64,000 nt of DNA, taken from positions 1,834,879 to 1,898,878 of the forward strand of contig NZ_AZAJ01000001.1 of NCBI RefSeq assembly GCF_000504205.1, read 5' to 3'. Source of the stretch: Methanolobus tindarius DSM 2278. Lineage in GTDB: Archaea; Halobacteriota; Methanosarcinia; Methanosarcinales; Methanosarcinaceae. The translations under genes were made by a program, and so were the position numbers. Shown piece by piece: positions 48,473-52,687 of the stretch. Within the stretch, counting starts at the first letter, position 1. Every line of letters starts with the position of its first letter. Under the pieces are notes generated by a model. That model was not told the origin of the DNA. It saw only the letters and a list, made by a program, of their open reading frames with translations, and did no database searches.

Positions 48473-48745
48473 TCAATCTTTTGCCAGTGAATAACTTGCC
48501 ATTACCTTTAGATATTCATGGTCAACTTCCATGAGGACTGTCTGGAACATGGCTGCATGAACTTTTTCTTCTTTAGCTATATCGAGTAATATTGTCTTAA
48601 GGTCTTCATTTTCGGTGAGATTTGCCATCTGTTCGTACATATTAATGGCATCAAACTCAGCCATAATGGCAACTCTCATTAACTCTTTATCAATGTCATC
48701 TTCACTGATATTTTTAAGTTCAATGGGAACTTCTGAAAATACCAT
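48473..48745 (-). CDS. Half-ferritin (encapsulated-ferritin-like) 1
   Basis: A 90-residue two-helix ferritin-like protein. Predicted metal ligands are Glu30 (MAEFDAINMYEQMA), Glu60 and His63 (DIAKEEKVHAAMF), with the E...E-x2-H spacing of 30 and 33 seen in encapsulated ferritins. Such proteins make a ferroxidase site only by pairing two subunits. It lies 11 bp downstream of a paralogue, so the two are co-transcribed and may form hetero-oligomers. No encapsulin shell gene is in the window. It lacks the acidic/Lys tail of the partner. Confidence 0.8.
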   Translation of the reverse strand: MVFSEVPIELKNISEDDIDKELMRVAIMAEFDAINMYEQMANLTENEDLKTILLDIAKEEKVHAAMFQTVLMEVDHEYLKVMASYSLAKD

Positions 48746-48756
48746 TTCATCACCCT

Positions 48757-49041
48757 TTATTTGCCCAGTTCTTCTTTAACTTCTTTCTTTCCAGCTTCCA
48801 GCTCATCAACCTGCTGCTGATCTATCTGAAGTAGAAGTGTCTGGAACTCTCCAATGTGCGTTTTCTCTTCCTTTGCAACATCAAGAAGTACATCACTGAC
48901 TTCTTTATTGTCAGTCATACCTGCCATTTGTTCATAGAGGTTGATGGCATCAAGTTCGGCCATGAGTGCGGCTCTTAGTATCTCTTTGTCAATATTTTCT
49001 TTTTTTATGTTACTGAGGTCTATAGGTACTTTTGAAAACAT
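48757..49041 (-). CDS. Half-ferritin (encapsulated-ferritin-like) 2
   Basis: A 94-residue paralogue of the gene after it, with Glu29 (MAELDAINLYEQMA), Glu59 and His62 (DVAKEEKTHIGEFQ) at the same spacing. It continues QTLLLQIDQQQVDELEAGKKEVKEELGK, which closely resembles my recollection of the ferritin-like N-terminal part of the Pyrococcus furiosus encapsulin. ATG 49041 (MFSKVPIDLS) matches the start of the partner; an in-frame ATG at 49056 would add five residues. Iron storage or oxidation is the likely role. Confidence 0.82.
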   Translation of the reverse strand: MFSKVPIDLSNIKKENIDKEILRAALMAELDAINLYEQMAGMTDNKEVSDVLLDVAKEEKTHIGEFQTLLLQIDQQQVDELEAGKKEVKEELGK

Positions 49042-49241
49042 ATATCCACTCTCCATATCCAGTATTCACTAACTGGCAATAATCGATTCAATGTGATTTT
49101 ATTTGCCTGTAAGATAAAGGCAAATAATAACTCCCATCTAATACATGAAGCCTCAGTCTATTTAGAACTAACGAAATAAGTCATGGAACAAAATCAAATG
49201 TCATATGATCTGTTCCATTAAAAATAATTTTGAATTGCAGT

Positions 49242-51164
49242 TTATCCCTGTTTCTGCCCAGATATCCTCTCATCCGCGCTCTTGAGTATCATGGCTATCA
49301 TATCGCTGTACGAGATATCAGCTATCTTTGCCATTTTTGCAAGGTGTCCGTCCCAGCACCAGCCGGGGTTGGGGTTGACTTCAAGGAGTTTTGGGTTGCC
49401 TTTTGCATCAAGTCTCCAGTCAAGGCGGGTGTAATCCCTGCACTCCAGCCTAGTTATGAGTTTCAGGCTGCACTCGATAATGAGTTCTTCAGTCTCTTTT
49501 GGAAGATCAGCAGGTGAGGATTTAATTTTCCAGTAAGGTGAGTCTGGTATCCACTTTGCTTCGTATCCGCAGAGTTTTGGAAGTTCTTCAGGTAAGTCAG
49601 AGTAATCTTCCTGTGTAAGCGGCAGTACGGTATAGTTCTCAGGTGGGTTGCCTATGATTCCTATACTGAGGTCTTTTCCGGAGAGGAATTCTTCCACAAG
49701 TATCGGTTTGTCGTAACCAAGTCCTTCCCTGATGTCATAAATAGCCCTGACAACTTCATCGCGGCTGTTACAAACGCTGTGCTGGTTCAGTCCGAAACTG
49801 GAGTCACCAAAGTTAGGTTTTACGATTACCGGGAAATCCATGGGCAGCTCGAACAGGGTGTCCTCTCCTTTAACAACAATACCTTCAGGAACCGGAACAC
49901 CAAGATCCTTTGCAATCCCCCTCACAAGTGCTTTATCATAGCAGAATGCAAGGCACTGCGGTCCTGATCCAGTGTAAGGAATGTTAAACATTTCAAGTAT
50001 TGCAGGCACATGCAGCTCTTTTTTAGGATCGTTATCATATCCCTCGTCACAAAGATTGAAAATGAAATCTGTTTTAGATTTTATCTTTGCAAGGTCTGTG
50101 ACAAGTGTATCGTGGTTATCCAGATATTTGAAAGAATAATTTTCAAGCCCATGGAGTCCGCCTTTAAGCTGGTCAATGGTGTACATGTCATCATCATCAA
50201 AGACACCGCAAGGTTTCAGTGAATCGTTTTTTCTCGGGTCTCCAAAAACAACGACTACATTCTTCTTTGCTTCCTTCGCCTTTTTTCTCTTGGGAGTCCA
50301 TTCTTTCCTGACCGTGGCAGTCACAGTAATGCGCCTTTCCATCATTCCAAGATCCTGGTTTCTCAGTGTCTGTGAATTAATGGAATCAACTATCTCAATG
50401 TCCGTGAAATCTGCTTTTTTCAGCAGTTCTTTCAGCGTTTCAGTTGTATAGAGGCGTTCAGCATAGAACTGGTCTGCTATAACTCCTGATGTATCGTTGA
50501 CAATGACTTCTCTGGATATGAGTTTCTGACCATCGGTTGAAATAGATCTCTCCCTGCACACAAAGTTGTGCTTGTCAATCCATTCCCACGAACGTGGCTG
50601 GTACTTTTCCTTTAGATATGAACCATCTGCCACATCAAGCAGCACCTTTCCCCAGGGTTTGAGTATCCTTTTTACTTCTTTTAAGACTCTCAGGTCTTCA
50701 TCAGACGTTTCAAAATAACCAAAACTATTTCCAAGGACCATCACAACATCGAATGTGTCAGTTGTGTATGGTGTTTTTCTTGCGTCCCCTTCCTTGAACT
50801 TGACACCAAGACTTTCCTTTTTAGCAGTGTTCTTCGCCCTCTGGATAAGGTAGTGTGACCTGTCAAGTCCATCTAGGTTCTTTATACCTCTTCTTGCAAG
50901 TTCCAGTGTGTGTCTTCCCTGGCCACAGCACAGGTCGAGCACATGGCTTTCAGGTGTCAGTTTAAGTATTGATGAAAAAGTATCTATTTCCTGTCTGGTG
51001 ATGCTTGCATCTTCTACTATGTCTGCATCGGTTTTCAGGTAGAGTGAATTAAATATTTTCTTCCACCAATCAGGGTTCACATGCTCTTCCAGATGTGGTA
51101 CAGGTCCCAATGTCCTTGATTTTTGTTTTTCCTTGTTCTGGTATTCTTTAGGTCTTTCTTTCAT
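49242..51164 (-). CDS. Methyltransferase-ATP-grasp ligase fusion
   Basis: A 640-residue two-domain protein. Residues about 60-290 are a class I SAM methyltransferase (HVLDLCCGQGRHTLELARRG motif I, VKFKEGDARKTPY, FDVVMVLGNSFGYF). After a Lys-rich linker (KRKKAKEAKK) residues about 310-635 are an ATP-grasp enzyme of the D-alanine-D-alanine ligase type. It shows DFIFNLCDEGYDNDPKKELHVPAILEMFNIPYTGSGPQCLAFCYDK, VIVKPNFGDSSFGLNQHS, ILVEEFLSGKDLSIGI and LDAKGNPKLLEVNPNPGWCWDGHL (metal-binding Glu/Asn). It probably ligates an amino or carboxyl compound and methylates the same product. The substrate is unknown. It is a lone gene, with no peptidoglycan genes near it. Confidence 0.85.
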   Translation of the reverse strand: MKERPKEYQNKEKQKSRTLGPVPHLEEHVNPDWWKKIFNSLYLKTDADIVEDASITRQEIDTFSSILKLTPESHVLDLCCGQGRHTLELARRGIKNLDGLDRSHYLIQRAKNTAKKESLGVKFKEGDARKTPYTTDTFDVVMVLGNSFGYFETSDEDLRVLKEVKRILKPWGKVLLDVADGSYLKEKYQPRSWEWIDKHNFVCRERSISTDGQKLISREVIVNDTSGVIADQFYAERLYTTETLKELLKKADFTDIEIVDSINSQTLRNQDLGMMERRITVTATVRKEWTPKRKKAKEAKKNVVVVFGDPRKNDSLKPCGVFDDDDMYTIDQLKGGLHGLENYSFKYLDNHDTLVTDLAKIKSKTDFIFNLCDEGYDNDPKKELHVPAILEMFNIPYTGSGPQCLAFCYDKALVRGIAKDLGVPVPEGIVVKGEDTLFELPMDFPVIVKPNFGDSSFGLNQHSVCNSRDEVVRAIYDIREGLGYDKPILVEEFLSGKDLSIGIIGNPPENYTVLPLTQEDYSDLPEELPKLCGYEAKWIPDSPYWKIKSSPADLPKETEELIIECSLKLITRLECRDYTRLDWRLDAKGNPKLLEVNPNPGWCWDGHLAKMAKIADISYSDMIAMILKSADERISGQKQG

Positions 51165-51481: not shown

Positions 51482-51487
51482 TTACTC
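51451..51487 (-). terminator. Terminator overlapping the PEF-CTERM stop
   Basis: On the minus strand GAGTAAG-TGAAAA-CTTACTC (7 bp) includes the last Glu codon and TAA, followed by TGCTTTTTTTATTTTTT. Confidence 0.7.
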
Positions 51488-52513
51488 ATTCTTGCGTCTC
51501 TGGATTACCAGTGCAAGACCAAGAATTGCAGCTACTGGAAGTACAAGTGTTGGGAACTCTGGAATTTCCTCTTCGCCACATTCTCTTACAATTGTCTCAA
51601 ATTCCACTTCGACCATTGGGCCCTGTGCACCATGAACATCTACAGGAGTGACCTGTACCATCCATTTCTGTCCGGCACTTGTGTCTGCAGCAGGTACTGT
51701 GCATCCTGTGTGGTCGATTCCAAGTGCGAATTCATCATCAAGGTATCCGCCGGTTCCTACATCCACATACCATCTGTACTTGTATGTAACAGCATCTTCA
51801 TCTGGGTCTGCAGGGTCTGGACCGGTTACAGTAACAGTAAGGTCATCATTTGTATCTACACAGTATGCAGGGTATTTCTCAACAACAGGCTCGTATGGCA
51901 CATGGTTGGAACCATCCAGACTGTATGTTACAATAAGCTTACTGTATTCAAGTGTGGTTGCCCACTCATCATAATTGTGGTAAATGTCGATGTCAATCCA
52001 GATGTCAAGTTCTCCATCATCTGTCAATAAGGTAGGATTTACATCGAATGTTGTGGTTGCCCATTGACCATTTGTTCCCTGGAGATATACCGGGTTCATG
52101 TCTACACCATCTGCAGTAACATGATCGTATTCTCCATCAAGGCCATGGTATGTTTCCGCATCGACATCATATGCACTTATGACAAGCTGTACGGAATTGA
52201 TTGTAAGATTTGGATCATTATATATTGCTGAATCTAATGTGTGTGTCCAGCCATAGTCTTCATCCCACCAGCTGTATATGTCAAATCCTCCATTGGCAGG
52301 TTCAGTGTAATGAGGAGCTGTACTGCTATCGTCCACTGTCTGAGTGTATGTGAAGGTTCCGTCTCCATTATTTACAGTTGATTCTCCTGTTGCAGCAGCC
52401 AGTTTTATCATTGGCTCTGGTCCATTTGAGCTTAGGTCATTTGTTTCATAAGCACTTGCCATTCCTGTGAATAAAGCCAGCACTACAAGTAATGTAATTA
52501 TTTTGCATTTCAT
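51482..52513 (-). CDS. PEF-CTERM secreted/surface protein
   Basis: A protein of about 343 residues with an N-terminal signal peptide (MKCKIITLLVVLALFTGMASA, cleavage after ASA) and a C-terminal sorting signal: IPEFPT, a hydrophobic helix, then QRRKNE. That PEF-CTERM tail is processed by an archaeosortase in methanosarcinal archaea. The mature region is rich in Asp, Thr and Tyr with beta-sandwich-like repeats (about 50-190 and a PKD/fibronectin-like 205-310 with YKYRWYVDVG). It is an extracellular adhesin or surface-layer-associated protein by context of type; the partner is unknown. The start could also be GTG at 52525. Confidence 0.85.
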   Translation of the reverse strand: MKCKIITLLVVLALFTGMASAYETNDLSSNGPEPMIKLAAATGESTVNNGDGTFTYTQTVDDSSTAPHYTEPANGGFDIYSWWDEDYGWTHTLDSAIYNDPNLTINSVQLVISAYDVDAETYHGLDGEYDHVTADGVDMNPVYLQGTNGQWATTTFDVNPTLLTDDGELDIWIDIDIYHNYDEWATTLEYSKLIVTYSLDGSNHVPYEPVVEKYPAYCVDTNDDLTVTVTGPDPADPDEDAVTYKYRWYVDVGTGGYLDDEFALGIDHTGCTVPAADTSAGQKWMVQVTPVDVHGAQGPMVEVEFETIVRECGEEEIPEFPTLVLPVAAILGLALVIQRRKNE

Positions 52514-52687
52514 ATATCGCACCACCCAATATCTATTGGATCACTTTTTAGCTCAGAATAGGTTTGTTTTGTCCCCCTTATTCCAGCTTATCCACATGTT
52601 GATTTTTCTTTCATATATAATTATTCGAATGACCTGTATATCATAATAATGATGATTAGCATATAATCAATATCTCTAATTTGTTTA

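Follow-up and report, generated by a model that had tools for sequence, protein, structure and literature searches.

The archaeon Methanolobus tindarius DSM 2278 encodes a 640-residue protein in which a SAM-dependent methyltransferase is joined to an ATP-grasp ligase resembling D-Ala-D-Ala ligase (Ddl). The gene is positioned at 49242..51164 on the minus strand of the window, the whole 64,000-nucleotide stretch of DNA that was analysed, which is part of a 3.15 Mb genome assembled as a single contig. Both domains are intact and under purifying selection, and the fusion is present in archaea and bacteria. We tentatively interpret the protein as a bifunctional small-molecule enzyme that makes an N-methylated, dipeptide-like amide. 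The N-terminal half would transfer the methyl group of SAM, most likely to the nitrogen of a substrate resembling an amino acid. The C-terminal half would use ATP and Mg2+ to convert a carboxylate to an acyl phosphate and join it to an amine, with the chemistry of D-Ala-D-Ala ligase but other substrates. The N-methylated dipeptide-like amide would thus be made by a single gene from housekeeping metabolites and would probably be a dispensable protective or compatible solute. A hydrolase of the DoeB/AstE type, where present, would cleave either the amide itself or an attached acyl group and enable recycling of the amide. The synthesis of a small N-methylated amide by a bifunctional enzyme is the simplest account because the acceptor site of Ddl is changed and the other domain is N-methyltransferase-like, and because the gene is self-sufficient, patchily distributed across domains of life, and sometimes paired with an amide hydrolase akin to one that acts in ectoine breakdown. 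We infer the nitrogen acceptor, the order of the steps, the action of both halves on one molecule, the class of the product, and its physiological role.

The occurrence of a near-identical double enzyme in many archaea and bacteria suggests that they have a small molecule in common. It is possible, and is put forward with reserve, that a self-sufficient gene for an N-methylated dipeptide-like metabolite became common to archaea and bacteria through repeated transfer, with a recycling hydrolase as an optional addition. If true, microbes of anoxic settings and the deep biosphere, habitats that we assume from the lineages named below, would commonly make a small molecule that has so far escaped discovery; the poorly known chemistry of microbes would gain a metabolite, and the partner hydrolase would be assigned a function. 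Named carriers that are not MAGs, including Methanolobus vulcani and Desulfonema magnum, make the relationship of one gene to one product directly testable. No publication describing this fusion was found in the open PMC literature, and a methyltransferase-ligase fusion is not mentioned in the relevant passages of a survey of archaeal fusions (PMC11237513). The association of the fusion with a DoeB/AstE-type amidohydrolase is new here.

Integrity of the fusion gene

The open reading frame starts with ATG and contains 640 codons followed by a stop codon, with no internal stops; its extent agrees with Pfam matches and relatives. The methyltransferase half, delimited by Pfam, the structure model, and conserved positions, includes residues 17–285 (50310..51116, minus strand). 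It is followed by a linker of residues 286–299 (50268..50309, minus strand), which is defined by the model and has low confidence at 293–297. The Ddl-like ATP-grasp half, identified by Pfam, conserved positions, and structure matches, is formed by residues 300–640 (49245..50267, minus strand). Pfam domains Methyltransf_25 (residues 75–172, E 5.4e-20) and Dala_Dala_lig_C (residues 441–627, E 2.7e-25) both score above their curated cut-offs. NCBIfam concurs with these domain calls, with all scores below cut-off among the best 25 of 85 matches, and neither these matches nor the Pfam matches listed include a single model spanning both halves. The AlphaFold2 model of the whole protein has a mean pLDDT of 83.5 and a pTM of 0.54, according to which each half is predicted with fair confidence to be folded, and the mutual orientation of the halves is not fixed by the model.

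A scan of genome collections provided at least 590 pattern matches, at least 584 of them with a relative of the protein, and the best 80 were kept. For all but one of the 80, the alignment begins no later than query residue 19 and ends no earlier than residue 632, at 61–96% identity; the exception, from locus L015, is aligned over residues 96–638. The nearest kept relative is a full-length protein from M. vulcani with 96% identity. The intact reading frame and the 79 near end-to-end relatives rule out a frameshift or assembly artefact at the join, and the fusion reported in the first-pass annotation is real.

The ratio of dN/dS relative to M. vulcani is 0.028 for the methyltransferase half and 0.023 for the ligase half. 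In comparisons with three more distant Methanolobus it is 0.02–0.06 where defined, although dS is close to saturation or saturated. Constraint is looser over the first 30 residues (0.13–0.32). Both halves are under purifying selection, and neither is degenerate or decaying. Among the catalytic and conserved positions of the two halves together, 48 of 51 are invariant in the alignment of 64 fusions, and the remaining three are nearly so (C79 in 62 sequences, S455 in 61, E595 in 63), which bears out the earlier impression that both active sites are intact.

Ligase half and its acceptor site

The ligase half resembles structures of D-Ala-D-Ala/D-Lac ligases, with Z-scores of 23.9–28.0 over 276–312 residues among the matches listed. 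Its conserved residues include the acidic cluster D323/D325/D326, K449, S456, the YEAKW segment at 534–538, R580, D582, E595, N597, and the motif W602-C-W-D-G-H607. Residues K411, K449, S456, E491, Y534, K537, W538, R580, D582, N597, and all of WCWDGH are identical in 64 of 64 fusions. The residues for binding ATP and Mg2+ (K, S, R, D, E, and N), whose roles we take from E. coli DdlB, align with those of solved Ddl structures, as is characteristic of the ATP-grasp fold. The fold, the ATP/Mg-binding residues, and the YEAK(Y/W) loop are shared with the Ddl/VanA family (PF07478). By contrast, the two substrate sites differ. The loop following the NxxPG motif is TSHS in E. coli DdlB, with its serine holding the carboxylate of the second D-Ala, whereas it is WCWDGH in all 64 fusions, and the Ddl acceptor-carboxylate motif is absent. 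The region for the first substrate contains an acidic stretch where the Ddl motif would be.

A ligase of the D-Ala-D-Ala type acting on the cell envelope, with the methyltransferase as an accessory, would account for the Ddl fold and the ATP/Mg residues. However, the fusion reaches 120 bits against a cut-off of 245.65 for TIGR01205 and 126.2 against 243 for PRK01372, about half of both cut-offs; the acceptor motif is replaced without exception; and the gene occurs in methanogens, which are not known to make peptidoglycan. The cell-envelope function is highly improbable, and the proposal of the first-pass annotation that the ATP-grasp half serves something other than D-Ala-D-Ala synthesis is upheld by the replaced acceptor motif and the missed family cut-offs.

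The separate proteins found to be most closely related to the ligase half are 27–39% identical to it, are often arranged in tandem, and occur with genes of the lysine-2,3-aminomutase family and GNAT genes. Unlike the fusion, these Ddl-like ATP-grasp proteins have no fused methyltransferase, and 37 ligase halves of fusions form one clade apart from 35 separate relatives with full support, on a long branch of 2.4 changes per site. Among the sequences sampled, fusion of the ligase half traces to a single origin.

The neighbours of these relatives bear on an alternative in which the product is an amide of a polyamine, a diamino acid, or a β-amino acid, with the cluster D323/D325/D326 binding a doubly charged amine. 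Position 323 is glutamate in 19 of 24 separate ATP-grasp relatives (27–37% identical), many relatives of this kind adjoin lysine-2,3-aminomutase-family genes, often with GNAT acetyltransferases, and others adjoin genes recognized by eye as arginine decarboxylase- and agmatinase-like. The partner hydrolase described below is similar to DoeB, an enzyme with a diamino acid as its substrate. However, the decarboxylase and agmatinase are assigned by eye only, and the low identity and the long branch of the fusion clade imply that substrates may have changed, so that a product of this kind is rather unlikely.

Several of the clusters are worth recording for themselves. Lysine-2,3-aminomutase-family radical SAM genes occur together with Ddl-like ATP-grasp genes in archaea at loci L110–L114 and L118, where the ATP-grasp genes are in tandem, and in the phylum of Desulfonema at L136, L139, L141, L143, L149, and L156. 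At L151, L153, and L155, tandem ATP-grasp genes follow genes that by eye are pyruvoyl arginine decarboxylase- or agmatinase-like. In the family to which the window belongs, a Ddl-like ATP-grasp is fused to a Peptidase_S58 domain (L183:5953-8070, minus strand), next to genes that by eye resemble a glycine-betaine-type ABC transporter.

Methyltransferase half and the methyl acceptor

The methyltransferase half modelled alone has a pLDDT of 90.4 and Z-scores of 20.9–24.7 to the best 50 solved methyltransferases listed. The conserved residues on the SAM side are D77, C80, G81, G83, D101, and N146-S147-F-G-Y150-F151, all of which are among the invariants of the 64 fusions. On the cap side W193-E194-W195, R204, R206, R218-E219, D231, Y234, R237, and Y239 are conserved and likewise invariant in 64 of 64, and D271, G273, and M275 are also conserved in this half. 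About half of the best 50 structures, in which several enzymes are repeated, are N-methyltransferases acting on sugars, amino acids, peptides, or bacillithiol; they include TylM1, KedS8, CcbJ, CypM, NmbA, DesVI, and the glycine/sarcosine and glycine N-methyltransferases. At least five of the 50 are named C-methyltransferases (9icz, 9gdj, 7zkh, 7zkg, and 7zgt), and the top match, 3d2l, is uncharacterised, as are others. The methyl acceptor may well be a nitrogen atom, since about half of the near structures are N-methyltransferases and NmbA is the nearest protein by sequence. That one small molecule is methylated and ligated in consecutive steps, as suggested in the first-pass annotation, is plausible.

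The glycine/sarcosine N-methyltransferase of Methanohalophilus, which functions in betaine synthesis, has a similar fold (Z about 22), methylates the nitrogen of an amino acid, and makes a solute; by contrast with the fusion, it lacks an ATP-grasp half, and the two are only about 20% identical.

NmbA N-methylates the cysteine of bacillithiol, and PDB entry 9ri2 was identified as this enzyme through PMC12719100. It is the best PDB sequence match of the methyltransferase half (E 1e-22 alone, 2.4e-28 with a profile) and shares the class I SAM fold, the SFGYF motif, and SAM-site residues. The fusion might therefore make an N-methylated low-molecular-weight thiol, with an NmbA-like methyl step and the ATP-grasp half attaching cysteine or its partner; passages of a review consider it likely that archaea contain novel thiols (PMC7278568). 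However, identity to NmbA is 27% over the structural alignment, NmbA has no ligase, and the 42 positions that do not vary among the fusions comprise 25 shared with NmbA and 17 at which NmbA differs, including W193, E194, W195, R204, R218, E219, D231, and Y234. BshC (PF10079) was found in none of 60 genomes from the family of the window and in three of 14 control genomes, which makes bacillithiol itself unlikely there. Bacillithiol is probably not the substrate, since most of the cap-side residues differ from NmbA and none of the 60 genomes yielded BshC, and a thiol product in general is quite improbable.

Eleven stand-alone methyltransferases were compared with the fusion, ten with 35–40% identity and one with 50%. 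Most of them keep the SAM-site residues and several cap-side residues, and the complete WEW motif is kept only in the 50%-identical protein. This protein is encoded at L178:5758-9642 together with a cNMP-domain ABC transporter and two small SET-domain proteins, retains fusion-type residues, and has no ligase gene beside it, an indication that methylation can proceed without the ligase. A role in peptide modification or export is hinted at because the methyltransferase adjoins SET-domain genes and an ABC transporter in this operon, and the peptide methyltransferases CypM and CgnL are among the close structural matches. According to this alternative, the fusion would modify a peptide or protein, or make an exported peptide-like compound. 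However, the ligase half belongs to the Ddl type, and the known enzymes of that type link free amino acids; when ORFs of at least 70 residues were compared, no neighbour family had a fixed place beside the fusion in 80 loci; and ABC ATPase genes are present in eight of the 80, three to six genes away. A peptide-directed function is unlikely, and the formation of a small N-methylated amide is preferred.

Distribution and evolution

By record title, the best 80 relatives comprise 23 archaeal and 57 bacterial proteins; the fusion is thus not confined to archaea. The archaeal titles are Methanosarcinaceae, Methanophagales, Methanoculleus, Lokiarchaeia, Jordarchaeia, Freyarchaeota, Nitrososphaeria, and Altiarchaeota. 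The bacterial ones include Atribacteria, Aminicenantes, Planctomycetes, Desulfobacterota, Zixibacteria, Stahlbacteria, Spirochaetes, Chloroflexota, Caldithrix, Hydrogenedentota, and Sumerlaeota, among others. MAG titles can mislead: the fusion protein of L027, a MAG with the title Candidatus Nitrosotalea, is nearly a copy of one from Methanophagales, and the bin or title is probably wrong.

In the phylum of the window, the fusion was found in 39 of 246 drawn genomes, counted as ligase-half matches of at least 56% identity, at least five of which are fragments; eight further genomes contain only relatives of up to 37% identity. It is present in seven of 247 drawn genomes from the phylum of Desulfonema, five of 216 from a Planctomycetes phylum, and 31 of 50 from an Atribacteria phylum. 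Six of ten drawn genomes from the genus of the window carry it. Whole copies within the family are 53–96% identical to the window protein, and bacterial copies are 57–69% identical to it.

L108 and L109, two MAGs of the ANME-1 type from one family of the window's phylum, contain the fusion gene in fragments. ATP-grasp, GNAT, and aminomutase genes are located between the pieces in one of them, and in the other a gene that by eye is transposase-like lies beside them. The fragmentation could be true decay or an effect of assembly.

A tree of 82 whole fusions (31 archaeal and 51 bacterial), with domain labels taken from record titles except for seven set by hand and 18 derived from the phylum searched, requires at least 11 changes of domain label, and at least three switches between domains of life are forced by well supported branches alone. 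This and the other trees are quick searches with SH-aLRT support only. In the tree of methyltransferase halves, the stand-alone protein of L127 is placed inside the fusions; however, constraining the fusions together resulted in a better score, and a single origin is not rejected (p 0.82).

A mobile or viral gene was considered and rejected: 72,556 plasmid records provided 14 matches, none covering more than 80% of the query, and the best ten of the 14 are rhizobial ATP-grasp proteins covering 42–43%. No phage match to the fusion was found. Among viral contigs, 44 stretches fit one of two short patterns, and none of them encodes a relative.

Gene neighbourhood and the partner hydrolase

The statement of the first-pass annotation that context gives no substrate holds within the window. 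Elsewhere it does not, since a 325-residue amidohydrolase of the DoeB/AstE type (PF24827, E 1.7e-23) is adjacent to the fusion in four of the 80 loci (L025, L036, L060, and L083), representing two bacterial lineages, and its subtype was found only in fusion-bearing genomes among those searched. DoeB deacetylates N-acetyl-2,4-diaminobutyrate in the breakdown of ectoine. The only NCBIfam match of the hydrolase is DoeB (TIGR02994); however, its score of 53.4 bits is far below the cut-off of 402.7, and the hydrolase is a separate subtype, present in the genomes searched only with the fusion. Its six PDB relatives include solved DoeB (6twl/6twm), ranked behind an AstE/AspA protein.

The hydrolase subtype, defined by at least 55% identity, is present in nine of 50 fusion-bearing genomes; in five of the nine, one of which belongs to Jordarchaeia, it is on a different contig from the fusion. 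It is present in none of 658 genomes lacking the fusion from three phyla (0/240 in the phylum of Desulfonema, 0/211 in the Planctomycetes phylum, and 0/207 in the phylum of the window). In the genomes drawn from these phyla, it occurs only in two centre genomes, both of which carry the fusion. The Fisher p for 9/50 versus 0/658 is 2e-11, and it is 1e-6 after removal of the four seed genomes (5/46 versus 0/658); the 50 genomes were chosen from the 80 kept loci, non-randomly, and their phyla differ from those of the comparison samples. The co-occurrence is therefore suggestive rather than clean. In the nine genomes, distances between the hydrolases correlate with distances between the fusions (r 0.54, a value reached in 21 of 5000 permutations).

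The hydrolase is optional, because 41 of 50 fusion genomes and all 246 genomes from the phylum of the window lack the subtype, and its link may point elsewhere than to the fusion product. More distant AstE proteins have a different distribution. Proteins with 25–34% identity were found in 26 of the 246 genomes, including that of the window. One genome from the phylum of Desulfonema (G464, of 247) contains a single such protein with 29% identity, and G551, one of ten fusion genomes with any match, has only distant AstE proteins (29–33%). The search in the Planctomycetes phylum used a stricter limit of 1e-40, which distant AstE proteins would escape.

The neighbourhood is otherwise unconserved, with the commonest neighbour family present in eight of the 80 loci. 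Four Methanolobus loci with sufficient flanking sequence (L008, L009, L014, and L015) have the same genes on either side of the fusion as the window. Downstream of the fusion are two rubrerythrin/EncFtn-like genes in tandem on the minus strand (48473-48745 and 48757-49056), which share a 137-nucleotide stretch that is 70% alike, at a spacing of 299 nucleotides, and score above the Pfam cut-offs for rubrerythrin and EncFtn-like proteins and below the NCBIfam cut-offs for encapsulin cargo. The pair is also downstream in M. vulcani (L008), is not among the families common to at least three of 80 loci, and was rejected as an operon partner. Upstream of the fusion is a gene for a 347-residue protein with a PEF-CTERM sorting signal (51482-52525, minus strand). 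A radical SAM gene that by eye resembles NifB and follows the fusion in Methanoculleus and its relatives was set aside as belonging to one lineage, as were genes that by eye are CorA-like, aldo-keto-reductase-like, and asparagine-synthase-like near Atribacteria copies, mostly from one lineage.

Glucosylglycerate and mannosylglycerate synthases are makers of solutes. A glycosyltransferase akin to glucosyl-3-phosphoglycerate (glucosylglycerate) and mannosylglycerate synthases, scoring below the NCBIfam cut-off, is encoded near the fusion in five loci from three lineages: L010, L015, and L093 from Methanolobus, L181 of the ANME-1 type, where the fusion is divided between two frames, and L056 from Aerophobetes.

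An operon of an ATP-grasp/M20 peptidase-like fusion, a gamma-glutamyltransferase, and an N-formylglutamate-amidohydrolase-like protein was observed in ANME-1-type and Desulfobacterota genomes (L083:9407-13884, L109:5922-10519, and L158:2107-6759). Its link to the methyltransferase-ligase fusion is a lead only. The set follows the hydrolase in L083, is located beside the broken fusion copies in L108 and L109, with the third gene not found in L108, and in Desulfonema is separated from the fusion by about 20 kb.
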